Shown here piece by piece: positions 25,019 through 42,114 of a stretch of 64,000 bases of DNA; positions within the stretch are counted from its first letter, which is position 1; the number at the start of each line of letters is the position of its first letter. Both the position numbers and the translations under genes were made by a program. The DNA lies in assembly GCA_947496175.1 (NCBI GenBank), contig CANMBU010000002.1, positions 1-64,000 of the forward strand. Direction: 5' to 3'. The notes beneath the pieces were generated by a model. That model was not told the DNA's origin and made no database searches. It saw nothing but the letters and a program-made list of their open reading frames with translations. Source of the DNA: an uncultured Roseovarius sp. (GTDB taxonomy: Bacteria > Pseudomonadota > Alphaproteobacteria > Rhodobacterales > Rhodobacteraceae).

Positions 25019-25605
25019 CGCCACTTGGAGCAAAACAGCTCGTGCTGGAAACTGATCGATTGCGACTGATCCCGTTCAGCCTTGATGATCTAGATATTGC
25101 GCGGGCTTTGCTTTGCGACAGAGACGTCATGAGGTATGTCGCCGACCCGATGTCGCCCGTGCAGGTGGCCGAGCAAATGCACAACTATATCAGACGTGGT
25201 GCAGGAGGGCGGATCGGTATCTGGTGTGTGGCCCGCAAGGACACGGGCCAGAAAATCGGTGATTGCGTGTTGTTGCCAGTTCCCATTGAAACGGAGGACT
25301 ATGACTGGAGCCTGCTGTCCGAACATGCCTACCCTGATGCGCATATCGAGGTGGGGTATCTCTTGATCCCAGAGGCGTGGGGGCAAGGGTATGCCACTGA
25401 AATCTGTGCGCGGCTGTTGAAGTTTGCGTTTGAGCAAACCGCTTTAGACCAAGTCGTCGCAACGACAGACAGCGCAAACCACAAATCACGCCATGTTCTG
25501 GGCAAATGCGGCCTCCAATTTAAGGGGCAAAGGCGCGCCTATGGGTATGACGATGTGGACTGGTTCGAAATCGAGAGAGGCGACTGGAGGTCTGACACGA
25601 TCTAG
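25015..25605 (+). CDS. GNAT family N-acetyltransferase
   Basis: LETDRLRLIPFSLDDLDIA ... EVGYLLIPEAWGQGYATEICARLLKFAF; ATGA overlap with upstream gene. Confidence 0.88.
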   Translation: MTPLGAKQLVLETDRLRLIPFSLDDLDIARALLCDRDVMRYVADPMSPVQVAEQMHNYIRRGAGGRIGIWCVARKDTGQKIGDCVLLPVPIETEDYDWSLLSEHAYPDAHIEVGYLLIPEAWGQGYATEICARLLKFAFEQTALDQVVATTDSANHKSRHVLGKCGLQFKGQRRAYGYDDVDWFEIERGDWRSDTI

Positions 25606-27002
25606 GCGCCGTATTCCGCACTGAGCCTGGTCAACCCCGCTTCCATGATGTCGAACATCTCGTCTATTTGCGCCTCGGTCATGATAAGCGGTGGCGAGAA
25701 GACGGCCATATTGCCGAAGGGGCGTAACAAGAGTCCCATCTCTTCACAGGCCGCATCCAGTTTGTTGCCGAATTGCAGATGCGCGGCATAGGTCTCGTCA
25801 GACAATTCCGGGCGACACTCCAGACACCCCAGAAGGCCCATGCCACGGGCGTCCCCAACGATGTCGAATTTCTCACCAATGGCGCGCAGGCGCCCTTGGA
25901 AATATGGCGTGATACGCTGCACGTGACCGAGGATGTCTTCGCGCTCCATGATCTCGATGTTCTTAAGCGCCGCGGCACAGCCTACCGGATGCCCGGAATA
26001 GGTGTAGCCGTTGTAGAAGGTGTCATTCTCGGCGTTGCCGCGCATCTGGTCGACCACGCGATCAGACAAAATACAGGCCCCCAGCGGGATGTACCCCGAG
26101 GTCAGGCCCTTGGCGCAGGTGATGATGTCAGGCACGATGTCAAAGACCGGCTCAGACGCAAACCAATGCCCCATGCGACCAAAGCCGGTGACGACCTCAT
26201 CCGAGATGTAGAGGATGTCATGCTTGTGACACAGATCCAGCGTGCGTTTATGATAGCCCGGCGGTGGCACGATGATCCCGCCCGAGCACAGGACCGGCTC
26301 AGCGATGAAGGCGGCGATTTTATCTGCGCCGACCTCGGCGATGGCGGCTTCCATATCGGCCAGTTTCGCATCGCACCAATCCTCAAGGCTCATGCCATCT
26401 GGGCGGCCATAGGGGTTAATGTCGGGCAGGAAATGCACAAGCTCATCGGCCTTGTCGAACTGTGTCTTGAAGCGTTCCTTTCCGGTCATGGTCGAGGCCA
26501 GATAGGTCGAGCCGTGATAGGCTTTTTCACGCGATAGTATGATCTTTTTCTCGGGCCGACCCATTCGATTGTTCATGAACTGAACCGCGCGCAGGGCTGT
26601 GTCCACTGCTGTCGAACCCCCGGTCGTGAAATGCACGGTGTTGAGGTCCCCCGGCGCAAATTCGGCCAGTTTGCGCGCCAAGACGGCGGCAGGCTCTGAG
26701 GTAAAGGACCATGGCGAAGCGTAGGGCATTTGCATGGTCTGCTCTGCAATCGCCTTGGCCATTTCCTCGCGGCCATAGCCAATTTGCACGCACCACATGC
26801 CGCCCGGACCGTCGATGTAACGTTTGCCTGCACTGTCCCAGAGATAGATACCCTCGCCGGTGTTCACGCGCATGTATTCGTCTTTCCCCACACCTTCGAC
26901 CCCGGCCCACGGGTGCAGATGGTGATCGCGGTCCCAGCGAGTCAGATCCTCTTCGCTGGGTGAGTTTGACTTTGTCTTTTGGTTGAGCGTTGTGTTCGAC
27001 AT
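25602..27002 (-). CDS. Class III PLP-dependent aminotransferase (amine/omega-amino acid:pyruvate type)
   Basis: GVGKDEYMRVNTGEGIYLWDSAGKRYIDGPGGMWCVQIGYG; DEVVTGFGRMGHWFA; TCAKGLTSGYIPLGA. Confidence 0.88.
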   Translation of the reverse strand: MSNTTLNQKTKSNSPSEEDLTRWDRDHHLHPWAGVEGVGKDEYMRVNTGEGIYLWDSAGKRYIDGPGGMWCVQIGYGREEMAKAIAEQTMQMPYASPWSFTSEPAAVLARKLAEFAPGDLNTVHFTTGGSTAVDTALRAVQFMNNRMGRPEKKIILSREKAYHGSTYLASTMTGKERFKTQFDKADELVHFLPDINPYGRPDGMSLEDWCDAKLADMEAAIAEVGADKIAAFIAEPVLCSGGIIVPPPGYHKRTLDLCHKHDILYISDEVVTGFGRMGHWFASEPVFDIVPDIITCAKGLTSGYIPLGACILSDRVVDQMRGNAENDTFYNGYTYSGHPVGCAAALKNIEIMEREDILGHVQRITPYFQGRLRAIGEKFDIVGDARGMGLLGCLECRPELSDETYAAHLQFGNKLDAACEEMGLLLRPFGNMAVFSPPLIMTEAQIDEMFDIMEAGLTRLSAEYGA

Positions 27003-27006
27003 CGGT

Positions 27007-27405
27007 TCAATCGCCTTTTGTTTTCTCAACGGGCCCGCCCTGTTTTTCCCAGGTCGAGAACCCTTCTTTAAGATGTGCTGCCTCAAATCCCATATCCTGA
27101 AGCGTGGCCACGGTCAGAGCTGAGCGCCAGCCGCTGGCGCAGTGAAACACGTATCTTTTGTCCTGCCCGAAAACCTCTTTGTAATAGGGGCTGTCGGGGT
27201 CGACCCAGAACTCGACCATGCCGCGCGGGGCATGAACACTGCCGGGGATGTATCCGGTTCTTTCGCGCTCGCGCACGTCACGGATGTCAACAATAACGGT
27301 GTTGGGATCGTCCACCTGCGCAATCAGGTCTGCGGTTTCAACCTCTTCAATCCGTGCCCGCGCATCAGCCACCATCTGCGCTGCGGTCTTTTTGAGCTTT
27401 GGCAT
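27007..27405 (-). CDS. Cytosolic rhodanese-like domain protein
   Basis: VIVDIRDVRERERTGYIPGSVHAPRG; YVFHCASGWRSALTVATLQDMGF. Confidence 0.88.
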   Translation of the reverse strand: MPKLKKTAAQMVADARARIEEVETADLIAQVDDPNTVIVDIRDVRERERTGYIPGSVHAPRGMVEFWVDPDSPYYKEVFGQDKRYVFHCASGWRSALTVATLQDMGFEAAHLKEGFSTWEKQGGPVEKTKGD

Positions 27406-27465
27406 TGATCAGTCCCTTCTCGTCTTGCCGGGCTTTGCTGCATTCAGAACCAAACGTGCTTTGAG

Positions 27466-28113
27466 TTAAGCCTTGTCCAGTGGAAAATGCTTGGGAAACA
27501 AAAGGCTCAGCGCATGTAGGCTGTCTTGATAACATGTCTCACCGTCAGTCTCTGACGGGTAGAGCATCAAGCAAAGCCAATGACCATCTGAGATGGACTC
27601 AATCAGTCGCGTCGCACGCTGTGCGCTCAGATCTGAATATCCACCATCTTCAATCAGCCGGGCACAGATGCGCATAATCTCTTCAAACCGTTGATTGTCA
27701 TAGCGGTTGTGGATCTTGAGGTAGTTTGGCCGGTACTTGGCCTGTCCCCAAAATGCGAACCAAACGGCCAGCTTTTTGTGGGTGCAGACCTTCTTGTCAA
27801 AATCTGCACGCAGGATCGCGGCGAGTTGCTGTGCAGGGTCTGAACCCGCCTCCTTCTGATACTTGGTCCACAGATCAAAATGCTCTTGCGCCAGATAGCC
27901 GAGCGTTGCGTCATAGAGCGCTTCTTTGCTGGCAAAGTGATAGTTCACAACGCCATGCGAAACCTTTGCCTTTTCCGTTACATGACGCAATGTGGTGTCG
28001 GAAAAGCCGCGTTTGGAGATTGAATCCATCGCCGCCATGATGAGTTGTTTGCGCCGCACGTCCCGCGGGGCTGTGCGTTTACTGGTGGTCTCATGGCGCG
28101 TTTTAACTGGCAT
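27466..28113 (-). CDS. TetR/BetI-like transcriptional regulator
   Basis: IMAAMDSISKRGFSDTTLRHVTEKAKVSHGVVNYHFASKEALYDATL. Confidence 0.88.
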   Translation of the reverse strand: MPVKTRHETTSKRTAPRDVRRKQLIMAAMDSISKRGFSDTTLRHVTEKAKVSHGVVNYHFASKEALYDATLGYLAQEHFDLWTKYQKEAGSDPAQQLAAILRADFDKKVCTHKKLAVWFAFWGQAKYRPNYLKIHNRYDNQRFEEIMRICARLIEDGGYSDLSAQRATRLIESISDGHWLCLMLYPSETDGETCYQDSLHALSLLFPKHFPLDKA

Positions 28114-28955
28114 CAGTCGGCTCGCTCAGCCAATTGCTGATCCAACAGGTCCCGCTTGTGCTGGCGGTACATGATGAGGGCTGCAATGGTCACACAGATC
28201 GCCACGACCAAGATGATGATTGTGGCAAGGGCGTTGATGTCAGGCCGAAGGCCCAAACGGATGCGCGAGAAGATGAGTATTGGAAGCGTGTTTGCCCCGG
28301 GGCCGGTGACAAAGCTTGCGATCACCAGATCATCAAGCGAAAGGGTGAAGGCCAACAGCCAGCCCGATACCAGCGCAGGGGTAAGGCGCGGGATGGTGAT
28401 TGCCGTGAGAACCTTAAACGGTTTTGCGCCCAGGTCTGCGGCAGCTTCTTCAAGGTCCTGACCCATACCGGTCAGGCGCGCTTGCACTGTGACGGCGACA
28501 AACGCCATGGAGAAAGTGATATGCGCGATCGTGATGGTGGTGAATCCACGCTCTGCAGGCCAGCCGATCAATTCTTGCAGGGATATGAAAAACACCAGCA
28601 AGGACAGACCCGTTATGACTTCTGGCATCACCAGTGGCGCGACAAGCATCCCGCCGAAAAGCGTGCGTCCTTTGAATCGGCCAAACCGGACCATCGCAAG
28701 CGCTGCAAGTGTGCCAAGTATGGTGGCGAAAGTCGCATTCACGAAAGCGATCTTGAGACTGAGCGCCACGGCGCTCCAGACTTCGGGGGACTCGAAAAAC
28801 AGCACTTTGTACCAGCGCGTGGACCACCCGCCCCAAACTGGCACCAGCTTGGAGTGGTTGAAAGAGTAGATCACCAAAAGCAAGAGCGGGATGTAAAAGA
28901 AGGCCAGCCCGAGGCTCACCATGACCGTCAGAAAGCGAGAGCGTTTGTTGTACAT
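28113..28955 (-). CDS. ABC transporter permease, PotC/PotI type
   Basis: Polytopic; EEAAADLGAKPFKVLTAITIPRLTPALVSGWLLAFTLSLDD. Confidence 0.9.
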   Translation of the reverse strand: MYNKRSRFLTVMVSLGLAFFYIPLLLLVIYSFNHSKLVPVWGGWSTRWYKVLFFESPEVWSAVALSLKIAFVNATFATILGTLAALAMVRFGRFKGRTLFGGMLVAPLVMPEVITGLSLLVFFISLQELIGWPAERGFTTITIAHITFSMAFVAVTVQARLTGMGQDLEEAAADLGAKPFKVLTAITIPRLTPALVSGWLLAFTLSLDDLVIASFVTGPGANTLPILIFSRIRLGLRPDINALATIIILVVAICVTIAALIMYRQHKRDLLDQQLAERAD

Positions 28956-28958
28956 CTC

Positions 28959-29921
28959 CTAACGCCCCTCGTTTTCTTTGCCTTGGTAGTGCTGGAAGAC
29001 GGCGATAGGCACCACGAGAAGGAACAGAAGGACAATGGCGACTGCCGAGGCGACGGGCCAGTCGGTGTTGCGCGAAAACTCGTTAAAGAGCACGCGGCCA
29101 ATCATCTGCACGTTGCCGCCGCCAAGAAGATCGGGAATGACATATTCGCCCGTGGCCGGGATGAACACCAAAAGAGAGCCCGCGATGATACCCGGGATCG
29201 TCAGCGGCAAGGTCACTTTGAAAAAGGTGTTGGTCGGCTTTGATCCAAGATCGGCTGCTGCTTCATTCAGGCTGGTGTCGAGCTTTTCCATATTGGCGTA
29301 AAGCGGCAGGATCATGAACGGCATGTAGGTGTAGACAATACCCACAAAGACCGCGAATTCGGTGTAAAGCATGCGGATCGGCTCATCGATGAGCCCGATC
29401 GAGATCAGCAGGTTGTTGATTGTGCCCTGATCCGCCAAAAGGCCCATCCAGGCATAGACGCGCAACAAGAAAGACGTCCAGAATGGCAAAATCACCAGGA
29501 AAAGCAAAAGCGGCTTCATCACAGGACCGGATCGCACGATCCCATAAGCAATGGGATAGCCAAACAACAGACAGATCAGTGTTGAGAGAACCGAGATCTT
29601 GAGCGAGTTGAGATAAGTGTTGGAATACAGATTGTCGGTCAGGATGTAGGTGAAATTGTCAAAAACAATCCGGATGTTCATTACACCCGTGTCCGTCCAC
29701 TCAATCAGCTTGGTGAACGGGGGGCTTGCGATGGCCAGCTCTGCCAAACTGATCTTGGCGACAATGAAAAACGGAAAGAGAAAGAAGAAGAGCAGCCACA
29801 CAAAAGGGATCAGTATGACGATCTTGCGCCAATTGTTCTGTGCCCGTCTGGCGAGAGATTGCAGAAAACCGATGTCTTGCTGAGAGGTCGCAGAGACCGG
29901 GCTGTTCGTTAGATCGGTCAT
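28959..29921 (-). CDS. ABC transporter permease, PotB/PotH type
   Basis: Polytopic; NEAAADLGSKPTNTFFKVTLPLTIPGIIAGSLLVFIPATGEYVIPDLLGG. Confidence 0.9.
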   Translation of the reverse strand: MTDLTNSPVSATSQQDIGFLQSLARRAQNNWRKIVILIPFVWLLFFFLFPFFIVAKISLAELAIASPPFTKLIEWTDTGVMNIRIVFDNFTYILTDNLYSNTYLNSLKISVLSTLICLLFGYPIAYGIVRSGPVMKPLLLFLVILPFWTSFLLRVYAWMGLLADQGTINNLLISIGLIDEPIRMLYTEFAVFVGIVYTYMPFMILPLYANMEKLDTSLNEAAADLGSKPTNTFFKVTLPLTIPGIIAGSLLVFIPATGEYVIPDLLGGGNVQMIGRVLFNEFSRNTDWPVASAVAIVLLFLLVVPIAVFQHYQGKENEGR

Positions 29922-31060
29922 GAATTTAACAACATCGCGCTGGATGGCTCCCAGCTTAGGTAGACCGTGTCTTCCCAGGTGATGGATTGCTCATTACTCC
30001 GCGACCTGACCTGATTTGGAGCAGTCACATCGACAAGTTGGCCTGTTTTGAGCTTAACCTTATAGATTGAGGTCTCACCCAGATATCCGATCTCTTCAAC
30101 TTCACCGCTGACCTGATTGGGACCCGCCTTTTTGGGCGCTGTTTTGCTCACATGAATTTTTTCGGGCCTTAGGCCAACCCAGATTTGTTTGCCTTCGGTC
30201 ACCGATTGACCGTGGTCGATGTAAACTTCACCAAGGTCAGTATCGACGCGCACATGGTCGGTGCCATCTTCGCTGACGCGTCCGGCAAAAATATTGGCCG
30301 ATCCGATAAAGTCCGCGACAAAGCGCGACTGAGGAAATTCGTAGATCTCATTCGGTGTGCCGATCTGCATGAAGCGTCCGGCATCCATCACGGCCATGCG
30401 GGTGGCCAGTGTCATGGCCTCTTCCTGGTCGTGGGTGACAACGATGAACGTCACGCCGACCTGTTCCTGAATGTTGGCCAACTCAAACTGCGTTTGCTTG
30501 CGCAGTTTCTTGTCCAAAGCGGCGAGCGGTTCATCAAGCAAGAGCAAGCGTGGTTTCTTGACGAGCGCGCGGGCCAAAGCAACTCGTTGCCTTTGACCAC
30601 CAGAAAGCTGTTGCGGTTTGCGTTTCTTGAAGTCCTGTAATTCGACCAGTTGCAGAATTTCATCCACGCGGTCGGTGATTTCGCTTTTGGGAACGCGGTC
30701 TTGTTGCAATCCGAACGCGATGTTCTTTTCAACCGTCATATGCGGGAAAAGCGCATAGCTTTGGAACATCATGTTGGTGGGGCGTTCATAGGCCGAGACA
30801 TTCGACATGTCTTCGCCCCCAATGTTGATCGAGCCGGATTCAGGAAACTCGAACCCTGCAAGCATCCGTAGCAAAGTTGATTTGCCACAACCCGAGCCGC
30901 CCAAAAGGCAAAAAAGCTCACCCTGATAGATGTCGAGATCAATGTTGTCGACAGCGGTAACTGAACCGAATTTCTTTGTCAGGCCACGTATTTGGACCAA
31001 TGGAGTGTTGTTCTCATGGTCAAGCCACGGCGCATCGGTCACGGACGGTCCCCCAGTCAA
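29918..31060 (-). CDS. ABC transporter ATP-binding protein, PotA/PotG type
   Basis: Walker A GGSGCGKSTLLRMLAGFE, signature QLSGGQRQRVALARAL, TOBE-like C-terminus. Confidence 0.93.
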   Translation of the reverse strand: MTGGPSVTDAPWLDHENNTPLVQIRGLTKKFGSVTAVDNIDLDIYQGELFCLLGGSGCGKSTLLRMLAGFEFPESGSINIGGEDMSNVSAYERPTNMMFQSYALFPHMTVEKNIAFGLQQDRVPKSEITDRVDEILQLVELQDFKKRKPQQLSGGQRQRVALARALVKKPRLLLLDEPLAALDKKLRKQTQFELANIQEQVGVTFIVVTHDQEEAMTLATRMAVMDAGRFMQIGTPNEIYEFPQSRFVADFIGSANIFAGRVSEDGTDHVRVDTDLGEVYIDHGQSVTEGKQIWVGLRPEKIHVSKTAPKKAGPNQVSGEVEEIGYLGETSIYKVKLKTGQLVDVTAPNQVRSRSNEQSITWEDTVYLSWEPSSAMLLNS

Positions 31061-31087
31061 AAATGCTCAATATTTTTGCGAGCGTGG

Positions 31088-31117
31088 GGTGGTGGCATAA
31101 AACCTCACGCCACCACC
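31088..31117. other. Stem-loop between binding-protein and ATPase genes
   Basis: GGTGGTGGC-ataaaacctcac-GCCACCACC. Confidence 0.65.
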
Positions 31118-31132
31118 TGTTTCAAAAAGCGA

Positions 31133-32242
31133 TCAGTTGCCCGCTTTGAAATTGGTCCAAGTTCGCGTTTGCAGACGCTCGACCTTCGGCGGGAGCACTT
31201 TTGTGGTGTACATCTTGGCAACCTGATCAGAAGTTGGGAAAGCCGCCGGGCTTGATGTCACTTCTTCATCCACCAGTTCTTTGCCGGTCTTGTTGGCCGT
31301 CGCATACCAGGTGAAGTTACTGTCCGCCGCGCCAACTTCAGGCCGCATCATGTAGTTAAGGAACAAATGTGCGTCTTCTTTGTTTGCGGCATCCGCAGGG
31401 ATCAACCAGCCGTCAATCCAGAGCTGCGCTGCGCCTTGGCCTTCGGGCAGGAAGAAATCAAGAATGACGCCTGTATCTGCTTCGGCTGCGCCGGACATCG
31501 CCAAAAGCCCATCAGGCCCCCAAGTTGTGGAGATGCAGAACTCTTTCTGTGGCATCCGCTGATACGCATAGTTATCGAACGTTTTGATATGCGGACGGAT
31601 CTTCGCCAGCATTTCCCCAACCGCCTCATAGTCTTCGGAATTGGTCGAGTTCGGGTCGAGCCCCAGATAAGCAAGCGCCATTGGAATGATGTCACCTGGA
31701 GAATCCAGGAATGACACACCACAGGAGGCAACTTTCTCCAGGTGCTCAGGGTTAAAGATAAGATCCATGGAGCCGATTGGTGCGTCAGGATAAGTCGCCT
31801 TCACCAGCTCTTCATTATAGGTCACTCCATGTGTGCCCCACATATACGGAATGAAGTGCTTGTTGCCTGGGTCCCATTCACTGTCGAGCTGCGCCATAAG
31901 GGCCGGGTCAATATGTTTAATGTTGTCCAGCTTTGACATATCGAGCGGAGCGACGATGCCCGCCTTGATCAGGCGCGCTGTATCACTACCGGCGTGGCTC
32001 ACGACATCATAACCGCTATTGCCCGCAAGCAGTTTCGCGTCGATCGACTCAGCGGAATCGTAGGTGTCGTAAATGACCTTGATCCCGTATTCTTTTTCGA
32101 AGTTGGCGATCGTGTCTTCTGCGATGTATTCACCCCAGTTTGTAACCTTCAGCACACGATCTTCAGCAACAGCCGATCCGGCCATCAAAACGCCAACTGC
32201 AACCGTGCAGGTCAGTCCCTTCAGTTTGTATGTAAGTGTCAT
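31133..32242 (-). CDS. Spermidine/putrescine-type (PotD/PotF) extracellular substrate-binding protein
   Basis: Signal peptide; VLKVTNWGEYIAEDTIANFEKEYGIKVIYDTYDSAESIDAKLLAGNSGYDVV. Confidence 0.9.
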   Translation of the reverse strand: MTLTYKLKGLTCTVAVGVLMAGSAVAEDRVLKVTNWGEYIAEDTIANFEKEYGIKVIYDTYDSAESIDAKLLAGNSGYDVVSHAGSDTARLIKAGIVAPLDMSKLDNIKHIDPALMAQLDSEWDPGNKHFIPYMWGTHGVTYNEELVKATYPDAPIGSMDLIFNPEHLEKVASCGVSFLDSPGDIIPMALAYLGLDPNSTNSEDYEAVGEMLAKIRPHIKTFDNYAYQRMPQKEFCISTTWGPDGLLAMSGAAEADTGVILDFFLPEGQGAAQLWIDGWLIPADAANKEDAHLFLNYMMRPEVGAADSNFTWYATANKTGKELVDEEVTSSPAAFPTSDQVAKMYTTKVLPPKVERLQTRTWTNFKAGN

Positions 32243-32390
32243 ATTGCGGAATTCCTCTCCCTAGGACGACGTTCAATTTTTTGATGAGTGCATCGCGCCT
32301 TTTGTCCGGCGCAGTCCCTCGTTGAGTGATTAACTGGTTGAACGTTCGAAAAAACGTTATTCGGTGCAAATCAAACGAGTCAAGCTGTAC

Positions 32391-32420
32391 GGTCGCCAGA
32401 TTTGATCAAATCTGACGACC
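32391..32420. promoter_or_regulatory. 30-bp near-perfect palindrome, putative operator upstream of the binding-protein gene
   Basis: GGTCGCCAGATTTGATCAAATCTGACGACC; one mismatched pair. Confidence 0.7.
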
Positions 32421-32612
32421 CTTTCAGAGTATGATCAATTCATGACCAAATCCGCACGGTGGGGTTCTTGACACAAGAAATGGATTTCCGAGATTTAGCA
32501 CTGATGCTGAAGTTAGTATCGAGAAACACATAACAACGGGAAAGTGCATTACCTTATGCGGTGCTTTTCTTGTTTGCCGGGATATCCTGAACGAGTTTGG
32601 AAAGTGACACAA

Positions 32613-32951
32613 ATGATCCATATGCTTTGCCGTTTCGATCTCAAGCCGGGCGCGTCAATGGAGGCGGTGCGTGGCTATTATGCCCAGTTTTTCAAAGACA
32701 TGAAGTCAATGGGATATGCGGAGGCAACCGGAGAGATCGGCACCCGAATTGACGACACACCAATGTCCACCGAAGCACCAGAAGCACAACGGTTCTACGT
32801 TGTGATGACCTTCCGGGATCGCGCGCAGCTTGATGAGTCATATGCGTATTTCACTGGCGGACACCTTACTCCGGACCAGCTTGCCGCGCATAACGGGATC
32901 CGGCGCTGGATCACCAATGAGGTGTTCACCTGTTGGGACGATCAGGTTTAG
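32613..32951 (+). CDS. Conserved hypothetical protein
   Basis: MIHMLCRFDLKPGASMEAVRGYYAQFFKDMKSMGYAEATGEIGTR; complete ORF between two cluster promoters. Confidence 0.65.
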   Translation: MIHMLCRFDLKPGASMEAVRGYYAQFFKDMKSMGYAEATGEIGTRIDDTPMSTEAPEAQRFYVVMTFRDRAQLDESYAYFTGGHLTPDQLAAHNGIRRWITNEVFTCWDDQV

Positions 32952-33022
32952 CTACCCCAAAATTTCTTTCAAAAAAAACTGCGTCTAGCTCCGCTGCCCT
33001 TGGTTGTGTAGTCTCTTTTTGA

Positions 33023-33038
33023 CTGACTGTTCAGTCAG
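33023..33038. promoter_or_regulatory. TetR-type operator candidate
   Basis: CTGACTG-TT-CAGTCAG perfect dyad about 50 bp upstream of the flavoprotein start codon. Confidence 0.7.
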
Positions 33039-33086
33039 ATTCGGAATCAGAATTGGCTTTGTGAAGGTTTTGAGGAGCACTTTCAT

Positions 33087-35174
33087 ATGACGATGGAACC
33101 CAATCACAGGATCCTTTTCGAGCCGCTGAAGATCGGCCCCAAGACGACCAAGAACCGGTTCTACCAAGTGCCGCATTGCAATGGCATGGGACACCGCTGG
33201 CCGCGGACCATGGCAGAAATGCGAGGCGTCAAAGCCGAAGGCGGTTGGGGTGTGGTGTGCACTGAAGAATGCTCGATCCACCCGACAAGCGATCTGACCC
33301 CGGCCACCCTGATGCGGCTCTGGGATGACAGCGATCTGCCGGTTCACCGTCTGATGGTCGACAAGGTGCATGAACACGGTGCTCTCGCAGGCATTCAGCT
33401 TGTCCACAATGGTCAGTCGGTCAGCAACTACCTGTCGCGTATTCCGTCCATCGCCCCGTCGCCCGCGCCGAATGAGACGTCAAACTCGACGCAGGCGCGT
33501 GGGATGGACAAAGAAGACATCAAAACCCTGCGCCGATGGTTTCGCGAAGCCGCGTTGAGGTCGCGTGAGGCGGGGTACGACATTATCTATGTCTACGCCG
33601 CACATGGCATCATGACGCTGCTTTATCAATTCCTGCTCAAACGCTTCAATCACCGCACGGATGAATATGGCGGAAGCCTGGAAAACCGGGTGCGGCTGGT
33701 GCGTGAGGTGCTGGAGGACACCAAGGACGCGGTCGGGCATGACTGCGCCGTGGCGTTCCGCTTTGCTGTGGATGAATTGATGGGTGAGGATGGCATGAAC
33801 AGCGCCGAGGCCGAGGATATTGTCGGGTCTCTCGCTGAGTTGCCAGACCTGTGGGATGTGAATGTGGCGGATTGGGGCAATGACTCGCTCCCGTCGCGGT
33901 TTGGCAATGAAGGATCGCAGGAAGACTATGTGCGCTTCGTCAAGAAACTGACCACCAAGCCGGTGGTGGGTGTGGGGCGGTTCACTTCTCCCGATACGAT
34001 GGTGTCTCAAATCAAACGTGGCGTACTTGACCTGGTTGGGGCTGCGCGTCCCTCGATTGCTGACCCGTTCCTGCCGACCAAGATTGAAGAAGGCCGGTCA
34101 CATGAAATCCGCGAATGCATCGGCTGCAACATGTGCACGACAGGCGACTACGTGGCCTATCCGATGCGCTGTACGCAAAACCCGACGATGGGAGAGGAAT
34201 GGCGAAAAGGTTGGCATCCTGAACGTATCCCGGCGTCGATATCCGAGGATAATGTGCTGGTGGTCGGAGGTGGACCTGCCGGGCTTGAGGCCGCGCTGGC
34301 GCTGTCCAATCGCGGATATCCTGTCACTCTTGCGGAAGCCAGGGAAAAGCTTGGCGGTCGTGTTCTGTGCGAAACAGCACTGGCCCCGCTGCGGCAATGG
34401 AACCGCGTGGCCGATTACCGCGTGAACCTGTTGTCGGCCCGAGCCAATGTCAGCACATTCACGCAAAGCGAAATGACCGCGCAGTCTGTGATGGAGCTGG
34501 GGCATGCCCATGTGGCCATTGCCACCGGATCGTATTGGCGCACCGATTTTGTGGGCATCCACCACCGGTTTGCACCCGAAAAGCTTCACAGCCCGATGAT
34601 TGTTGCGCCAGAGGTCATTATGGCCGGTGAGGTGCCAAAGGGTCCGGTGCTTATCTTTGACGACGATCACTACTACCTTGGCAGTGCTCTGGCCGAACAA
34701 CTGGCGGGAAACGGTGTCGATGTGGTGCTTGTCACGCCAGCAGCGGAAGCGGCGGGCTGGACGCATTTCACGCTGGAGTATGAACATATTCAGGTGCGGC
34801 TGCGTGAGCTTGGGGTTGAGATCATCTGCAACCATGGGATCGCGGCTGTGGGCGATGGCTTTGTCGATCTGGCTTGCGTGTTCACCGAGAAAACGCAGCG
34901 CAAGGATGTGTCCGCCGTGGTCCCCGTCACGTCGCGGATCAGTGACGACAGCCTGTATCATGATCTTTTGGCACAGAAAGACGCCTGGTCGGATCATGGC
35001 ATTAAGTCGGTCACGCGCATCGGCGATTGCTATGCGCCGGGAACCATAGCAATGGCAGTTTATGGAGGGCACGATTTTGCCCGAACGCTGGAAGCGCCTG
35101 TTGATCCGGATGCGCCGTTCCGTCGTGAAAATGACTTTGAAGCCCACAAGCTATGGCCCGAGTTTGCTTCATGA
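33087..35174 (+). CDS. Trimethylamine dehydrogenase-family FMN/[4Fe-4S] oxidoreductase of unknown amine specificity
   Basis: ILFEPLKIGPKTTKNRFYQVPHCNGMG (conserved flavinylated Cys), CIGCNMC...C cluster site, GEEWRKGWHPER, C-terminal FAD/ADP-binding half. Confidence 0.88.
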   Translation: MTMEPNHRILFEPLKIGPKTTKNRFYQVPHCNGMGHRWPRTMAEMRGVKAEGGWGVVCTEECSIHPTSDLTPATLMRLWDDSDLPVHRLMVDKVHEHGALAGIQLVHNGQSVSNYLSRIPSIAPSPAPNETSNSTQARGMDKEDIKTLRRWFREAALRSREAGYDIIYVYAAHGIMTLLYQFLLKRFNHRTDEYGGSLENRVRLVREVLEDTKDAVGHDCAVAFRFAVDELMGEDGMNSAEAEDIVGSLAELPDLWDVNVADWGNDSLPSRFGNEGSQEDYVRFVKKLTTKPVVGVGRFTSPDTMVSQIKRGVLDLVGAARPSIADPFLPTKIEEGRSHEIRECIGCNMCTTGDYVAYPMRCTQNPTMGEEWRKGWHPERIPASISEDNVLVVGGGPAGLEAALALSNRGYPVTLAEAREKLGGRVLCETALAPLRQWNRVADYRVNLLSARANVSTFTQSEMTAQSVMELGHAHVAIATGSYWRTDFVGIHHRFAPEKLHSPMIVAPEVIMAGEVPKGPVLIFDDDHYYLGSALAEQLAGNGVDVVLVTPAAEAAGWTHFTLEYEHIQVRLRELGVEIICNHGIAAVGDGFVDLACVFTEKTQRKDVSAVVPVTSRISDDSLYHDLLAQKDAWSDHGIKSVTRIGDCYAPGTIAMAVYGGHDFARTLEAPVDPDAPFRRENDFEAHKLWPEFAS

Positions 35175-36487
35175 CTGCATCCGCCAAATCAGACGCTTGG
35201 TACAAATCATCGTGCCACATAAAGACCTCGCTCTGGGGCAAGACCGCAGATGACCTGCCCGAACTTGAGCCTTTGACATCTGATATGTCTGCGGACGTCG
35301 CTGTCATTGGCGCTGGGTTTTGCGGTTTGTCCTCTGCCCTGCACCTCGCTGAACAGGGCGTCGATGTCGCCATTGTAGAAGCACATGAGCCGGGATGGGG
35401 TGCCTCGGGCCGAAATGGTGGACAGGTTATACCGGGTCTCAAAATTCTGCCTGATGAGATGATCGCGCGTTACGGGACGGAACGCGGAGAACGGATCGCC
35501 GAGACCGCGGGAGGCGCGCCGCAGGTGGTTTATGACCTTATCGAGAATTACGGCATTGAGTGTGATCTGCGACGCACGGGGTGGATTCAATTGGCCAAAG
35601 GACCAGCAGGTCGCGTGACCACGGATGCGCATGTGGCCCAATGGGGGGCACGGGGCGTTGCAACGCGCACGCTTGATCGGGATGAGATCGAGACAAAAGT
35701 GGGGACCTCGGCCTATGCCTCGGCCTTGCTGGATGAGCGTGGCGGGAACTTGCATCCTTTGAAGTATGCCCGCGGGCTTGCAAAGGCGTGTCTGTCACAA
35801 GGCGCACGTATTTTTCCGCAATCCCCTGCGGTTGCCGTGGAACATGACGGGGCGCATTGGGTTGTGAAAACCGAGCAAGGTCAGGTCAATGCACAGACAG
35901 TGATTGTCTGCACCAACGGCTATACAGGGTCGATGTTGCCGGGGCTGTCAGACTCGATTGTGCCGGTTCTGACGGGTGTGCTGGCCACCGATCCGTTGAG
36001 CGACAACCTGAAACATAAGATCTTGCCAAAGCGCCAAGGCGCAGCGGATACGCGGCGGCTCTTGTCGTGGTTCGGCATCGACAGCCAGGACCGTTTGATC
36101 TTTGGCAGCCGCATCAATTCGCAGCAAGAACTGATTGACGAGGCCAATTTTGGCTTTGGCTTTCGCCGAATGCGAGAGATTTTTCCCGAAGTTGACGCCA
36201 GCCGCGTCAACCACCTGTGGACGGGGCGCGTCGCGCTGACGCTCGACCACGTGCCGCACATTCACAAGCTGGGCGACGGCCTTTACAGTGGCCTTGGATT
36301 CAACGGGCGTGGCGTTGCCATGGCCAGTATGTTTGGCAAGGCGCTTGCGGCGCATTGTTTGGGCAAAGCTGGTGACGATTTTCTACCCGTGACCCCGATG
36401 CCCAAAGTGCCGTTCAGCCGATTTCGGGGGCAGGGTCTGGCCGTGGCCTTAACGTGGAAACGCCTGATGGATGCGGTACGGCCCTAG
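35171..36487 (+). CDS. FAD-dependent oxidoreductase, PuuB/DAO type
   Basis: DVAVIGAGFCGLSSALHLAEQGVDVAIVEAHEPGWGASGRNGGQVIPG; ATGA overlap with upstream gene. Confidence 0.88.
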   Translation: MTASAKSDAWYKSSCHIKTSLWGKTADDLPELEPLTSDMSADVAVIGAGFCGLSSALHLAEQGVDVAIVEAHEPGWGASGRNGGQVIPGLKILPDEMIARYGTERGERIAETAGGAPQVVYDLIENYGIECDLRRTGWIQLAKGPAGRVTTDAHVAQWGARGVATRTLDRDEIETKVGTSAYASALLDERGGNLHPLKYARGLAKACLSQGARIFPQSPAVAVEHDGAHWVVKTEQGQVNAQTVIVCTNGYTGSMLPGLSDSIVPVLTGVLATDPLSDNLKHKILPKRQGAADTRRLLSWFGIDSQDRLIFGSRINSQQELIDEANFGFGFRRMREIFPEVDASRVNHLWTGRVALTLDHVPHIHKLGDGLYSGLGFNGRGVAMASMFGKALAAHCLGKAGDDFLPVTPMPKVPFSRFRGQGLAVALTWKRLMDAVRP

Positions 36488-36535
36488 AAAGAATTTTGCT
36501 GTGCCAGAAAGAATGGATGGAAAAGGACTTGAACC

Positions 36536-37729
36536 ATGAGAGATATCCAGATTCCCAATGACTGGGACCGCAAGGGCCTGCCTGGTTGGTGCTACCATAG
36601 CGCCGAATTGCTGGAGCTTGAAAAGGAAGAGCTGTTCAAGACCCATTGGCAGATCGCCTGTCACGTGTCGGATATCCCAAATTCGGGCGATTTCCAGACA
36701 TTTGATGTGTGTGGGGAGCGTGCCATCATCCTGCGTGACACCGAAGGCAATGTGCGCGCGTTTCAAAATGTATGTCGCCATCGCGGCTCTCGTCTGGTGG
36801 CCGAAGACAGCGGAAACTGCCCGAGTGCCATGATCTGTCCCTTCCATGGCTGGGTCTACAATCTCGATGGCACCTTGCGCGGCGCCGCACGGCCCGACTC
36901 CTATCCGCCGCTCGACAAGCATGAGTTTGCCTTGCGCAGCTTGGATATGGAGATTTGGAACGGGTTCATTTTCATCCGGTTCAAACAGGGGCCCCAGCCA
37001 TCGGTGGCCGAGTTGTTACGACCTTTTGCCGAAGAAGCGGCAGGGTACCGAATGGCGGATCATGTGCCAACGGACGGCATCTGGACCGAAGAGACCCCGG
37101 TCAACTGGAAATCCATCCGCGACGTCGACAACGAGGGCTATCACGTGGCCATGGCGCATCCGGCGCTACAGGATCTCTACGGCACAACCTACTACGATGA
37201 ACCCTATGTCGATGGGGTGAGTCGCACCGAAGGTCTCTACACGCCCACAAAAGGGCGGCGCTGGGCCGTTCGAAACTACAAAAAGATGTCCAAGCCACAG
37301 GACTTCTTGCCCGAAGATCTGCACCGCAAGTGGCTGTACTATGGTCTTTTCCCAAATGCCGTCATCGCCGCGACCCCAGAGACCGTATTGTTTTATCAAG
37401 AGTTCCCAACCTCGGTGAATTCTTCGGTCATTCGGTCTGCCACCTATCGTCACGCGAATGAAGACCGCCAACAACGGGCCGCACGCTACTTGGCCAGCCG
37501 TATCGACCGCGAAACCGTTGACGAAGATATTCAACTCACTATCTGGTCTAACGAGTCCATGGCGTCAGAATTTTTTGAGGGGTTCTACCTGTCCGATCTG
37601 GAGTACGGCGTGCGCACGCATCACGACCACCTGCGTGCGGTTCTGCCGATCTACAACGTCGAAGAGGCACCCGCCGAGGATCAGGTTCGGAAGGTCAATG
37701 CATCCATGGCGACCCAAAGCACCTCATGA
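36536..37729 (+). CDS. Rieske non-heme iron oxygenase alpha subunit (quaternary-amine type)
   Basis: CRHRG...CPFHGW Rieske site; DVDNEGYHVAMAH mononuclear iron site with Glu in bridging position. Confidence 0.9.
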   Translation: MRDIQIPNDWDRKGLPGWCYHSAELLELEKEELFKTHWQIACHVSDIPNSGDFQTFDVCGERAIILRDTEGNVRAFQNVCRHRGSRLVAEDSGNCPSAMICPFHGWVYNLDGTLRGAARPDSYPPLDKHEFALRSLDMEIWNGFIFIRFKQGPQPSVAELLRPFAEEAAGYRMADHVPTDGIWTEETPVNWKSIRDVDNEGYHVAMAHPALQDLYGTTYYDEPYVDGVSRTEGLYTPTKGRRWAVRNYKKMSKPQDFLPEDLHRKWLYYGLFPNAVIAATPETVLFYQEFPTSVNSSVIRSATYRHANEDRQQRAARYLASRIDRETVDEDIQLTIWSNESMASEFFEGFYLSDLEYGVRTHHDHLRAVLPIYNVEEAPAEDQVRKVNASMATQSTS

Positions 37730-37968
37730 TATCCGAAGACCCTGACCCGGCCCAACTGCAGCAGCAAAAAAACCTGCTTGAGTCACCCATTGGTCAACGC
37801 GGGTCAGGTGCTGCGCGCTATGGGGCTGCGATGTTTTTCTATCAGGAAAAAATGATGTCGGCCGAGTTGCTCGAAATTTACCGAAGATGCTGCAAGTTCG
37901 ATCATGAAGACCCCGTTGATCTGGCCGCGTTTGAAGGTATCCCAAACGCGTTGCTGTTGGATCAATAG
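37726..37968 (+). CDS. 80-aa hypothetical protein, translationally coupled to the Rieske gene
   Basis: MISEDPDPAQLQQQKNLLESPIGQRGSGAARYGAAMFFYQEKMMSAELLEIYRRCCKFDHEDP; 4-nt ATGA overlap. Confidence 0.65.
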   Translation: MISEDPDPAQLQQQKNLLESPIGQRGSGAARYGAAMFFYQEKMMSAELLEIYRRCCKFDHEDPVDLAAFEGIPNALLLDQ

Positions 37969-37978
37969 GCTGCCGGTC

Positions 37979-39238
37979 ATGAGTGGATTGCCAACAGAAA
38001 CGGATGTGATTGTTGTCGGCGCGGGTGTCGCGGGTCTGTCGGCGGCAAGCGCGCTGCGCGCGCGCGGGGTTCAGGTCGTCGTTCTGGAAGCTGCGGACCA
38101 TACAGGCGGACGCTGTGTCACGGACACAACTCTGGTATCGCAACCCTTCGACAAAGGCGCGTCCTGGCTGCATTCCGCACAGATCAACCCGCTGGCGCGC
38201 ATAGGCGAACGGATGGATGTGGAGTTCCACAAATCCCCCTGGGCCTGGCGATGGGTCCATGCAGAGGGGCATGCGCTGAACCACGCCGAAGTCGAAGACT
38301 ACAACACCTATCAAGACACAATGTGGGAGGCCATCAATCAAGCGGGGACCACGCAGAAGGACTGCGCCGTCGCTTCTGTGCTTCCCGATAGCACGTGGCG
38401 CGAAACAGCCAAGCATTTTGTGGAGCAGATGCAAGGCGGTGATGCTGATGCGGTCTCAATTCACGATGTCGCGCAATACAGTGATTCCGAGGGAGATTGG
38501 TTGGTTGCCGGTGGCTTGGGCGCTTTTGTGCAAAGCCTGTTTGCTGATGTGCCGGTGCATTTGGCCTGCCCGGTCAGCAAGATCGACACATCCGGTCCTG
38601 GCGTCAAAGCTGTAACTCCCAAAGGCACGGTATTGGCTAACCACCTTGTCCTGACAGTCTCCACTGGTGTTTTGGCGGCAGAGACCATTTCGTTTACCCC
38701 GGCTTTGCCTGTGAGCAAGCTGCAAGCTGTCGAAAACCTGCCCATGGGGTTGTTAAACAAGATCGCGCTGGATTTTGATCCAAGCTGGACGAAAGCGCAT
38801 CAAGGTCAAATTGCCGACTATCACACCAGTGGTGACGCGTATTGCACGACACTTTTTGGGTTTTACGACACCAGCGTCGCCGTTGGTTTCGTCGCTGGAC
38901 GATTTGCGGATCAATTGGAGCAGCAGGGATCAGGGGCTGCCGCCGAATTTTGCCTGCAAGGCCTGTCAGCCATTTTTGGCAACGATGTTCGAAAACACAT
39001 TCGCAGAACAGCTGAGACCGCGTGGCGAAGTAGCCCGCTAGCTCTGGGATCCTATAGCTATGCCCGCCCCGGAGGTGCGAAGGCGCGCAGGGTGTTAGCG
39101 AAGCCCGTGGATAACAAACTGTTCTTTGCGGGCGAAGCAACAGCTTCGGATGCCTACGCTACTGTGCACGGCGCTTTCAAAAGCGGTCAAAGAGCGGCGC
39201 GCGAGGTTTTGAGTCAAGGAGCGGAAGCCAAAGCATAG
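37979..39238 (+). CDS. Flavin monoamine/polyamine oxidase family protein
   Basis: DVIVVGAGVAGLSAASALRARGVQVVVLEAADHTGGRCVTD; C-terminal FAGEATASDAYATVHGAFKSGQRAA. Confidence 0.88.
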   Translation: MSGLPTETDVIVVGAGVAGLSAASALRARGVQVVVLEAADHTGGRCVTDTTLVSQPFDKGASWLHSAQINPLARIGERMDVEFHKSPWAWRWVHAEGHALNHAEVEDYNTYQDTMWEAINQAGTTQKDCAVASVLPDSTWRETAKHFVEQMQGGDADAVSIHDVAQYSDSEGDWLVAGGLGAFVQSLFADVPVHLACPVSKIDTSGPGVKAVTPKGTVLANHLVLTVSTGVLAAETISFTPALPVSKLQAVENLPMGLLNKIALDFDPSWTKAHQGQIADYHTSGDAYCTTLFGFYDTSVAVGFVAGRFADQLEQQGSGAAAEFCLQGLSAIFGNDVRKHIRRTAETAWRSSPLALGSYSYARPGGAKARRVLAKPVDNKLFFAGEATASDAYATVHGAFKSGQRAAREVLSQGAEAKA

Positions 39239-39307
39239 ATGGCCTCTCGGAGTGTCTTTTAATCAGTGGCGTGAACCTGCGGCTTAGAGTTACACAAACA
39301 ACAAAAA

Positions 39308-39329
39308 CGGCCCGCTTTTAGGCGGGCCG
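39308..39329 (-). terminator. Rho-independent terminator of the minus-strand chrR-like gene
   Basis: CGGCCCGC-ttttag-GCGGGCCG with A-run on the left (U-run on minus transcript). Confidence 0.75.
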
Positions 39330-39356
39330 CTTGAAAAACGTCTGAGCAGCTTGCCC

Positions 39357-40017: not shown

Positions 40018-40566
40018 TCAAGTCATGGCGTGGCGCAAACGATCAAGCGCCAGCCGAATTCTCGATTTGATCGTACCCAGAGGCAAACCTGTCTGCTCAG
40101 CGATTTCGCTGTGACTCAGGTCGCCGAAATAGGCTTTTTCGATCAGCTCCTTTTGTTTTGCCGGCAGCGACGCAATCGCCTCTCCCAACCTTTCACTCTC
40201 CTGTTGCAGCGCCAGAGCGTCTGCCTGGTCGGGTTCCTCGCTAGGTCCCCATGGCAAGTCCTCGGGCTCGGGACGCCGCTGTTTGCGAAGCGCGTCGATC
40301 TTACGATTCCGCGCTATCGTAAAAATCCAGGTCGCCGCACTTGCGCGGGTTGGATCAAAAAGATGGGCCTTGTTCCACAAAGTGGCCATGACCTCTTGCG
40401 TACATTCCTCCGCCAGCGATGGATCGGCTCCGGAGCGCATCAAGAATGCTTTGACCCGAGGCGCGAAATGATCAAAGAGCGCTTTGAACGCAGCCCTATC
40501 CTGACTGTCGCGCACCTTGGCGATGTTGATCGACCAATCGGTGCCATCCTGGTTGCTCTGTTGCAT
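40018..40566 (-). CDS. rpoE: ECF sigma factor, RpoE family (ChrR partner)
   Basis: ECTQEVMATLWNKAHLFDPTRASAATWIFTIARNRKIDALRKQRRPE; start at MQQSNQDGTDW; adjacent chrR. Confidence 0.88.
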   Translation of the reverse strand: MQQSNQDGTDWSINIAKVRDSQDRAAFKALFDHFAPRVKAFLMRSGADPSLAEECTQEVMATLWNKAHLFDPTRASAATWIFTIARNRKIDALRKQRRPEPEDLPWGPSEEPDQADALALQQESERLGEAIASLPAKQKELIEKAYFGDLSHSEIAEQTGLPLGTIKSRIRLALDRLRHAMT

Positions 40567-40696
40567 CACTGTCTTTGCACCCCTACGCCCACGCGCTTTG
40601 TGCTCGGTTCGTTCCTTGGATTCAAGGACCGTGCGATCACTTGCCGCGCGTCGGGCAGGAGAGGCTTCAACAGTTTGAACATCACTGAACATGCAG

Positions 40697-40777
40697 AGCA
40701 TACGTGCCACATTCTGGCTCGGATCAGATTTTTGTTAAATTTCTTTGTCATCCGTTTTGGGTTTTTGTGCGTAAACC
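40697..40777. promoter_or_regulatory. Candidate divergent RpoE-type promoters
   Basis: Minus: TGATCC(40726-40721)-N18-TATGCT; plus: TCATCC(40748-40753)-N18-TAAACC(40772-40777). Confidence 0.5.
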
Positions 40778-40812
40778 AGCCTAGATACAAAAAAACACAG
40801 GTTAAAGACAGA

Positions 40813-42114
40813 ATGCCATTCGAAACTACAGCGCCGGCGCGTGAGAAAATTGCTATAATCGGCGCGGGGATCACCGGGCTTGGGGCTGCATGGCGCCTTT
40901 CGGATGTCCATGATGTTACGCTCTACGAAGCCGAGCCGCGATTGGGCGGGCATGCGCGTACCATTATGGCCGGTAAGAACGGTGATCAGCCAGTGGATAC
41001 CGGCTTCATTGTGTTCAACTACGCCAATTATCCCAACTTGGCGCAGCTCTTTGAAGAGCTTGACGTGCCGGTGGCCAAGTCAACAATGAGTTTTGGCGCT
41101 TCAGTACGCGGCGGCAGGATGGAATACGGTCTTGACGGCGCGCCCGCTTTCTTCGCTCAAAAGCGTAACGCTGTAAGCCCGAAGTTCTGGGGTATGCTGC
41201 GGGATATCTTTCGGTTTAATGCCAAGGCCACGCAACTGGCGGCCGCCAACGAGGATCTTACCATCGGTGAATTCCTGGACCGTTTGGGTATGGGGGTGTG
41301 GTTTCGAAACTACTACCTTTTGCCGCTCACCGGCGCGATCTGGTCAACGCCGACCGAAAAGATTCTCGACTTCCCTGCGCATGCCATGATCCGGTTCATG
41401 GAGAACCATGCGCTGCTCAACTACTCCGGTCAGCACCAGTGGTACACTGTTGCCGGAGGATCCCGCTCTTATGTAGACCGTTTGGAGACGGCACTCCTTG
41501 GACGCGGTGTCCGTCTGCGGCTGGGAGCGCCAATTTCAGGTGTGCGTCGCAAGACAACCTGCGTAGAGCTTCGAGCCGAAGGGGCAGAATGGGAGCTCTA
41601 TGATCATGTGATTTTTGCCACGCATGGTGATGACTCCCTGAAGATGCTCGCTGATGCGTCACCGCAAGAACAAGCAGCCTTGGGTGCGGTGAAGTATCAG
41701 GCTAACGATGTGGTGCTGCATTGCGATACGGCTGTTATGCCCAAGCGGCGTGCGGTCTGGTCGTCTTGGAACTACGCCGAGGCTCCGGCGCGGCGCGCGG
41801 GGCAGATTGATATCACGTATTGGATGAACAGCCTGCAGCCCATTCCGATGGATGACCTCCATTTCGTGACGCTGAATTCAGAGCGTCCAATCCGCGAAGA
41901 GCTGATCTATGACCAGACAGTGCTGCGCCATCCGATCTACGATCTGGAGATGTTGCAGGCGCAGGATGAAGTTCGGGCCTTCAACGGCACGCAAAACACA
42001 TGGTTCTGCGGGGCCTGGATGCGCAATGGATTTCATGAGGATGGGCTGGCCACAGGTCTTGAGGTTGCTGATGCTATCTTGGGGCAAGACACCATGGTCG
42101 TCGCAGCCGAATGA
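40813..42114 (+). CDS. NAD(P)/FAD-dependent amine oxidase-fold protein (RpoE/ChrR-regulon type)
   Basis: KIAIIGAGITGLGAAWRLSDVHDVTLYEAEPRLGGHARTI; start MPFETTAPA; divergent from rpoE-chrR. Confidence 0.88.
   Translation: MPFETTAPAREKIAIIGAGITGLGAAWRLSDVHDVTLYEAEPRLGGHARTIMAGKNGDQPVDTGFIVFNYANYPNLAQLFEELDVPVAKSTMSFGASVRGGRMEYGLDGAPAFFAQKRNAVSPKFWGMLRDIFRFNAKATQLAAANEDLTIGEFLDRLGMGVWFRNYYLLPLTGAIWSTPTEKILDFPAHAMIRFMENHALLNYSGQHQWYTVAGGSRSYVDRLETALLGRGVRLRLGAPISGVRRKTTCVELRAEGAEWELYDHVIFATHGDDSLKMLADASPQEQAALGAVKYQANDVVLHCDTAVMPKRRAVWSSWNYAEAPARRAGQIDITYWMNSLQPIPMDDLHFVTLNSERPIREELIYDQTVLRHPIYDLEMLQAQDEVRAFNGTQNTWFCGAWMRNGFHEDGLATGLEVADAILGQDTMVVAAE

Follow-up and report, generated by a model that had tools for sequence, protein, structure and literature searches.

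What would an alphaproteobacterium break down with a polyamine-type importer, a Rieske oxygenase and several flavin-dependent oxidases encoded side by side? The question is raised by a locus at positions 25602–39238 of the window, a 64,000-nt stretch of contig CANMBU010000002.1 from an uncultured Roseovarius sp. (GCA_947496175.1). The left half of the locus, on the (-) strand, encodes a class III aminotransferase (AT3), a TetR regulator and a PotFGHI-like ATP-binding cassette (ABC) importer, and the right half, on the (+) strand, encodes a flavoprotein of the histamine dehydrogenase/TMADH family (HADH), a DAO-family oxidase (DAO), the Rieske oxygenase, an 80-amino acid protein (p80) and a flavin amine oxidase (AMO; Table 1). 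An earlier note on this DNA had read these genes as a single system for Pot-type uptake and stepwise N-demethylation, a view supported here by co-occurrence, linkage and a common candidate operator. The locus probably forms a single regulated catabolic pathway whose substrate is a quaternary or N-methylated amine, most likely one with a second amino group (diamine- or polyamine-like).

Conservation and Unity of the Two Halves

The two halves of the locus belong together as one system. With an alignment of the Rieske protein alone as the query, about 85,000 named genomes yielded 80 loci, and Pot genes lay no more than 10 kb from the Rieske gene in 70 of these and AT3 in 54, a clustering that is not due to chance. 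Among 397 genomes of the family, 55 carry this Rieske gene and 13 a close PotF (at least 66% identity); ten of the 13 have both (hypergeometric p = 2.5e-7), nine of these pairs being within about 5 kb. Co-occurrence of the halves, chosen beforehand as the test on which the claim of a single system would stand or fall, was therefore found.

Synteny in other Roseobacter genomes had also been suggested as a check, and a complete locus from another genus (L134 in our numbering, where L marks loci and G genomes) has the order of the window: AT3, TetR, PotI-H-G-F, a 112-aa open reading frame (ORF), HADH (76% identity), DAO (69%), Rieske (72%), p80 (67%) and AMO (55%). Locus L133 has Pot genes, HADH (74%) and DAO (64%) with a more distant Rieske gene. 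Ruegeria, Sulfitobacter, Tateyamaria, Rhizobium, Shinella and SAR116 have variants of it, and the gene set is found in varying forms across many ocean and soil bacteria. In congeners without the system (G012 and G015), the adjoining HmgA-EamA genes are conserved and everything from AT3 to AMO is absent, and the locus therefore looks like an accessory cassette.

A Candidate Operator Shared by Both Halves

Comparison of the regions upstream of PotF gave the palindrome TCTGAMTGNNCAKTCAGA. A scan of 2.05 Mb of locus DNA found 24 sites that match it with at most two mismatches, and 22 of these lie in the promoter regions of PotF, Rieske, HADH, FAD1 or DMGDH (the last two being demethylation genes of relatives, discussed below). 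The site before HADH is the only one within one mismatch in the window's whole genome, and across six genomes searched, eight of nine sites were inside this locus. The palindrome is present in 11 of 11 window-type loci with a local TetR gene and absent from all four without one (L035, L048, L133 and L137). In L134 it stands before both PotF and HADH, in agreement with the co-regulation of the halves that the earlier note had implied. The occurrence of TCTGAMTGNNCAKTCAGA in promoters of both halves, tracking the local TetR gene, is new, and it is proposed that TetR regulates both halves through this candidate operator. Sites independent of the derivation of the motif lie before HADH in the window, L021 and L134, before DMGDH in L038, and before FAD1 in the rhizobial loci L041, L046 and L115, to which the genome-wide result may be added.

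Only the BetI-type C-terminal domain of the regulator matches, the NCBIfam BetI models scoring 104 and 96 bits against cut-offs of 201 and 118. A second, 30-bp palindrome in the divergent promoter region was found in the window and its close relative L021 only, and is not claimed as an operator.

The Rieske Oxygenase and Its Electron Supply

The Rieske enzyme is placed by its phylogeny in a distinct subfamily. A tree of 63 dereplicated members splits it from ten paralogues with a Shimodaira–Hasegawa-like approximate likelihood ratio test (SH-aLRT) value of 99, a claim limited to the clade as the outgroup branches are long, and the eight members of the window's own clade all occur with a polyamine-type binding protein, p80, AT3 and an AMO. 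The ligands C80, H82, C101, H104, H203 and H208 and the bridging E200 are invariant in 14 homologues; Glu200, linking the Rieske and mononuclear centres in place of Asp, follows the pattern of CntA. The best PDB match by sequence is CntA (110 bits), then stachydrine demethylase, and when the predicted model (mean predicted local distance difference test, pLDDT, 74.7; weak stretches at 192–206 and 342–379) was compared with PDB folds, CntA or stachydrine demethylase filled ranks 1–17, with aromatic dioxygenases placed lower. Ligand pattern and fold neighbours are those of quaternary-ammonium Rieske oxygenases of the CntA/Stc2 kind, and the quaternary-amine type given in the earlier note is upheld. 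The GbcA equivalog (NF058607) scored 128 bits, below its cut-off of 670.

The likeness to CntAB is that of an alpha-only oxygenase of the quaternary-ammonium type whose nearest solved structure, by sequence and fold, is CntA; however, identity is about 24–25% by structural alignment, the transporter and partners differ, and no CntB-type reductase is in the locus or was found in the window's genome. The Stc2/stachydrine demethylase structures 3vca and 4qup are also matched, at about 22% identity. Stachydrine and proline betaine pathways pair a Rieske demethylase with a demethylase of the old yellow enzyme (OYE)/TMADH family, a logic like that of this locus, but the locus adds a polyamine-type ABC importer, an aminotransferase, p80 and AMO.

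The NAD(P)H reductase that accompanies CntA or GbcA (FNR + 2Fe-2S) was not detected in the related loci by motif scan, save one Fer2 protein in L070, nor in the window's genome (G000; L138–L145) by PF00970, PF00175 and PF00111 searches. These genome searches gave only a PNPOx-fused FNR protein and a 306-aa Fpr-like protein without Fer2; the latter, together with separate ferredoxins, is the candidate electron source. The genome holds about ten Rieske oxygenase genes, and a shared electron supply is likely.

The p80 Domain

The 80-aa protein that the earlier note described as coupled to the Rieske oxygenase is a real conserved gene, its start forming an ATGA overlap with the Rieske stop. It contains a new conserved domain which, within the 397 family genomes, occurs only where this Rieske gene occurs: all 29 genomes with a strong match carry it (p = 4e-29), 27 of the pairs being no more than 5 kb apart and the other two on separate draft contigs. 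The same holds for plasmids, where six of six records with p80 carry the Rieske gene. The domain spans about 57 residues (GSGxxRYxAAM...LExYRxC...DxxDP), has no Pfam or NCBIfam family match, and is predicted to fold into four helices (mean pLDDT 84.7), a model without a PDB fold match at E ≤ 0.001.

Besides the stand-alone form, p80 occurs as the N-terminal domain of a dimethylsulfoniopropionate (DMSP)-lyase-like (DLL, PF16867) cupin protein in Fuscovulum-type loci, whereas the window carries the domain alone. Such fusions (L026:4016-4894, L117:17207-18058, L078, L083, L084, L086 and L097) lie with the same Rieske gene and usually with Pot genes, and offer a possible context for DLL proteins that lack a function. 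Another cupin, of 120 aa and ChrR type, recurs in 17 related loci (e.g., L137:14389-14757) and is not in the window.

Flavoenzymes and Exchange of Demethylation Modules

The description of HADH as TMADH-like in the earlier note was correct as to family, but with 763 bits against histamine dehydrogenase and 546 bits against TMADH the protein is nearer to the former. Identity in the aligned N-terminal region is 57–61% to histamine dehydrogenase, the closest in sequence, and about 48–61% to histamine dehydrogenase and TMADH taken together, from whose histamine or trimethylamine gene contexts the locus differs. Likeness extends to a full-length family match, the cysteinyl-flavin mononucleotide (FMN) Cys, the catalytic residues and the 4Fe-4S cysteines: HADH keeps equivalents of Cys30, Tyr169, His172, Arg222, Trp264, Asp267 and the four cluster cysteines, among them the defining residues of the superfamily (Cys-FMN, Tyr169/His172 and four cluster Cys). 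The TMADH aromatic bowl (Tyr60/Trp264/Trp355) is not kept, as only Trp264 is retained, Trp355 has no aligned residue, and Tyr60 is replaced by Glu (Gln in histamine dehydrogenase). DAO was formerly labelled PuuB-like, a name that no curated model backs: PuuB is not among its matches, the best of which is pipecolate oxidase AmaA, far short of its cut-off (322 of 600 bits).

HADH and DAO form the demethylation module of window-type loci. The Ruegeria type (L037-39, L135) has a protein of 819 aa that combines DAO, FAO_M and GcvT domains and resembles dimethylglycine dehydrogenase (DMGDH), and in the rhizobial and Fuscovulum types there are two CrtO-like flavoproteins (FAD1 and FAD2) and a GcvT protein which, among curated models, best matches the folate part of trimethylamine N-oxide demethylase. 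MttB-family (trimethylamine methyltransferase) homologues lie beside the Rieske-Pot locus in L096 and L105 (L105:611-2122). The DAO-GcvT or GcvT proteins, which recall dimethylglycine/sarcosine dehydrogenase and trimethylamine N-oxide demethylase, hold the same place in the loci of relatives; these folate-linked modules are absent from the window, where HADH and DAO take their place. Stepwise removal of N-methyl groups is argued for most strongly by the way in which such modules replace each other around a constant core of Rieske oxygenase, transporter and aminotransferase.

Transport and the Nature of the Substrate

The PotF-like protein keeps W37, Y40, W244, D247, D278 and Y314 (E. coli PotF numbering), and with them the amine-binding aspartates and aromatic residues of a PotFGHI importer, all four subunits of which have counterparts in the locus; it differs by Asp in place of E185, Trp at 276 and Gly at 38. 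The NCBIfam equivalog cut-offs for PotF (351 of 636 bits), PotG, PotH and PotI are not reached, and that of the potA subfamily is. In PotF and PotD structures, the amino ends of putrescine or spermidine are held by these residues. A dication is therefore a more likely substrate of the window's system than a betaine, and the site speaks for a diamine or polyamine more than for a betaine amino acid.

Weak support for a polyamine link comes from the SAR116 locus L091, which lies between an agmatinase gene that scores above its cut-off and glutamine-synthetase/PuuA-like genes that do not reach theirs. A gene of L094 that looks like an acetylpolyamine hydrolase was rejected as such a link, its neighbours being ectoine genes (EutC). 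Diatom cell walls contain long-chain polyamines with a base of putrescine, spermidine or diaminopropane, which are N-methylated, dimethylated at their ends and in some cases charged, as well as quaternary lysine derivatives (PMC4557024), so methylated polyamine-type substrates are plausible in the sea. A diamine or polyamine is the leading guess.

Proposed Pathway

The observed gene content, its conservation and co-occurrence, the conserved catalytic residues and the operator that tracks the TetR gene could be accommodated as follows. PotFGHI would import the amine, and the Rieske oxygenase, with p80 and with electrons from shared ferredoxin/FNR proteins instead of a dedicated reductase, would remove the first methyl of the quaternary nitrogen as formaldehyde. 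HADH (FMN/4Fe-4S) and DAO may then strip off the methyls that are left, or else act as oxidases of the tertiary and secondary amines, before AMO and AT3 degrade the amine backbone. TetR would repress both promoter regions via TCTGAMTGNNCAKTCAGA until the substrate or an intermediate binds. In this scheme we infer the order of reactions, the substrate, the electron donor and the role of p80.

Alternative Explanations

That the halves are two unrelated neighbouring operons is very improbable. They do lie on divergent strands, and the family genomes G309, G185 and G224 have a close PotF but, at a strict cut-off, lack this Rieske gene (the last has a partial Rieske gene beside Pot at a contig edge, L130), but the idea is contradicted by the significant co-occurrence and tight linkage across genera and by the order and paired operators of L134. 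A more serious contender, albeit one we hold to be doubtful, is a pathway for a betaine-type amino acid (trimethyllysine, gamma-butyrobetaine or beta-alanine betaine), demethylated as stachydrine or glycine betaine are, with a Pot transporter of changed specificity. Such a pathway would fit the closeness of the Rieske enzyme to CntA and stachydrine demethylase, the BetI-type domain of TetR, the loss of D247 and D278 from the type II binding proteins of relatives, and the match of DAO to pipecolate oxidase; the window's PotF, however, retains the acidic residues for binding of a second amine, which are unfavourable for a carboxylate, and the GbcA score is short of its cut-off.

It is unlikely that the locus serves ordinary spermidine/putrescine catabolism in which the Rieske enzyme has been co-opted for an unrelated reaction, carbon hydroxylation for example. 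PotFGHI, AT3, the spermine-oxidase-like AMO and the neighbours of L091 are what this would predict, yet the recurrent demethylation modules (DMGDH-like, GcvT and MttB) and the quaternary-amine fold neighbours of the Rieske oxygenase would be left unexplained. It also seems quite unlikely that the oxygenase cleaves a C-N bond as CntA does, releasing trimethylamine or dimethylamine for oxidation by the TMADH-family enzyme. CntA is the top match by structure and sequence and a TMADH-family enzyme is in the operon, but that enzyme is of the histamine dehydrogenase type, with the changes at Tyr60 and Trp355 noted above, and many homologous loci have folate-linked demethylation modules instead.

Several points weigh against the preferred explanation, a demethylating system for a quaternary or N-methylated amine. 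The case for the operator is partly circular, as the loci that gave the motif also supply much of its evidence, and the PotF promoter of the window has only a weak match with three mismatches, about the level of chance. A motif scan of the loci detected neither a dedicated Rieske reductase nor a linked aldehyde dehydrogenase. Next to L035, L048 and L129 lies a molybdenum hydroxylase of the aldehyde oxidase family, which may perform the aldehyde step there. In rhizobial relatives and several marine ones the binding protein is of a second type that lacks D247 and D278, and the substrate may therefore differ between clades. In the wider comparison set of 106 related loci, on which gene content was counted, 36 have a gene like an S-adenosylmethionine-dependent methyltransferase (e.g., L037:1296-2090 and L094:11204-11989), which a purely demethylating pathway does not explain.

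Gene Calls and Neighbouring Features

All of the genes named in the earlier note are present and match the stated families, with some corrections to their limits and membership. The rhodanese gene is not a general member, being found in three of the 106 loci; it is probably lineage-specific and was dropped from the core. The 112-aa ORF was missing from the earlier list; its DUF6614 match is sub-threshold (E 0.014), and its identity is 44% in L134 and 36% in L129. The most likely start of AT3 is ATG 27002, in preference to the TTG taken by the mechanical ORF; DAO most likely starts at 35171, with an ATGA overlapping the HADH stop, where the mechanical ORF begins at 35153; and AMO most likely starts at 37979, directly 3' of the p80 gene, the 65-bp overlap of AMO and p80 reported previously being an artefact of an over-extended mechanical ORF. 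Orthologues of AT3 (63–76%) adjoin the locus in L134, L137, L037-39 and L135, and those of AMO (52–62%) follow p80 or Pot in L035, L036, L048, L129, L134 and L137.

Table 1. Features of the locus, by position in the window.
Feature	Position	Strand	Evidence or remark
AT3, class III (PRK07036-type) aminotransferase	25602..27002	-	NCBIfam PRK07036 642 bits, above cut-off 618; Pfam Aminotran_3
Rhodanese-like protein	27007..27405	-	Pfam Rhodanese
TetR repressor with BetI-type ligand domain	27466..28113	-	Pfam TetR_N, TetR_C_6; proposed regulator of both halves
PotI-like permease	28113..28955	-	NCBIfam PotI 353 bits, below cut-off 476
PotH-like permease	28959..29921	-	NCBIfam PotH 397 bits, below cut-off 489
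PotG/PotA-like ATPase	29918..31060	-	TIGR01187 potA 413 bits, above cut-off 356
PotF-like binding protein	31133..32242	-	PDB PotF 320 bits; site alignment
30-bp near-perfect palindrome GGTCGCCAGATTTGATCAAATCTGACGACC	32391..32420		150 nt upstream of PotF, divergent promoter region
112-aa ORF, weak DUF6614 match	32613..32951	+	Kept beside HADH in L134, L129
Candidate TetR operator ACTGACTGTTCAGTCAGA	33022..33039		48 nt before HADH
HADH, histamine dehydrogenase/TMADH-family flavoprotein	33087..35174	+	Family match; catalytic and cluster residues kept
DAO-family flavin oxidase (amine/amino-acid oxidase type)	35171..36487	+	64–69% orthologues in L133, L134
Rieske oxygenase, own subfamily by phylogeny	36536..37729	+	Rieske C80/H82/C101/H104, mononuclear H203/H208, bridging Glu200
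p80, 80-aa protein, predicted all-helical	37726..37968	+	New domain; found in no family genome lacking this Rieske gene
AMO, flavin amine oxidase (spermine oxidase/LSD1 family)	37979..39238	+	Pfam Amino_oxidase E 3e-58; best PDB match spermine oxidase, 124 bits
Terminator-like hairpin, strong	39305..39332	-	Between AMO and convergent gene; consensus match only

Beside the locus, an FAD oxidoreductase (694 aa), a DUF1365 protein and a major facilitator superfamily transporter stand in a tight row (40030-44116), a separate unit that was not seen beside the cassette in the examined stretch of L021. A three-subunit molybdenum hydroxylase (aldehyde oxidase/CO dehydrogenase family) is encoded beside L035, L048 and L129 (L129:1062-4662) and, in the window's genome, in L138:5631-9224 by another Rieske locus.

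Novelty and Significance

A search of open-licence papers, covering Rieske with TMADH, histamine dehydrogenase with Rieske, and polyamine with demethylation, gave no description of this locus, which is consistent with the suggestion of the earlier note that the system is undescribed. The same literature gave no gene-level description of the homarine operon, which had been considered as a candidate, and no bacterial pathway for the methylated polyamines of diatoms was found in it. The most novel parts are the small p80 domain and the specific operator, the rest being akin to known demethylation pathways. A bolder proposal, to which we give a rather low probability, is that this would be the first recognised pathway for breakdown of N-methylated or quaternary polyamines (diatom silica polyamines, silaffins and plant methylated diamines), using a new Rieske class with an obligate p80 partner and no dedicated reductase.

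If the proposed system is correct, it would assign a function to a set of genes carried by marine and plant-associated Alphaproteobacteria, and provide a new testable route for methylated amines, which are part of dissolved organic nitrogen. The p80 domain and the TetR operator would serve as specific markers of the pathway in metagenomes and transcriptomes, and the p80-cupin fusions would put orphan DMSP-lyase-like proteins into a pathway.

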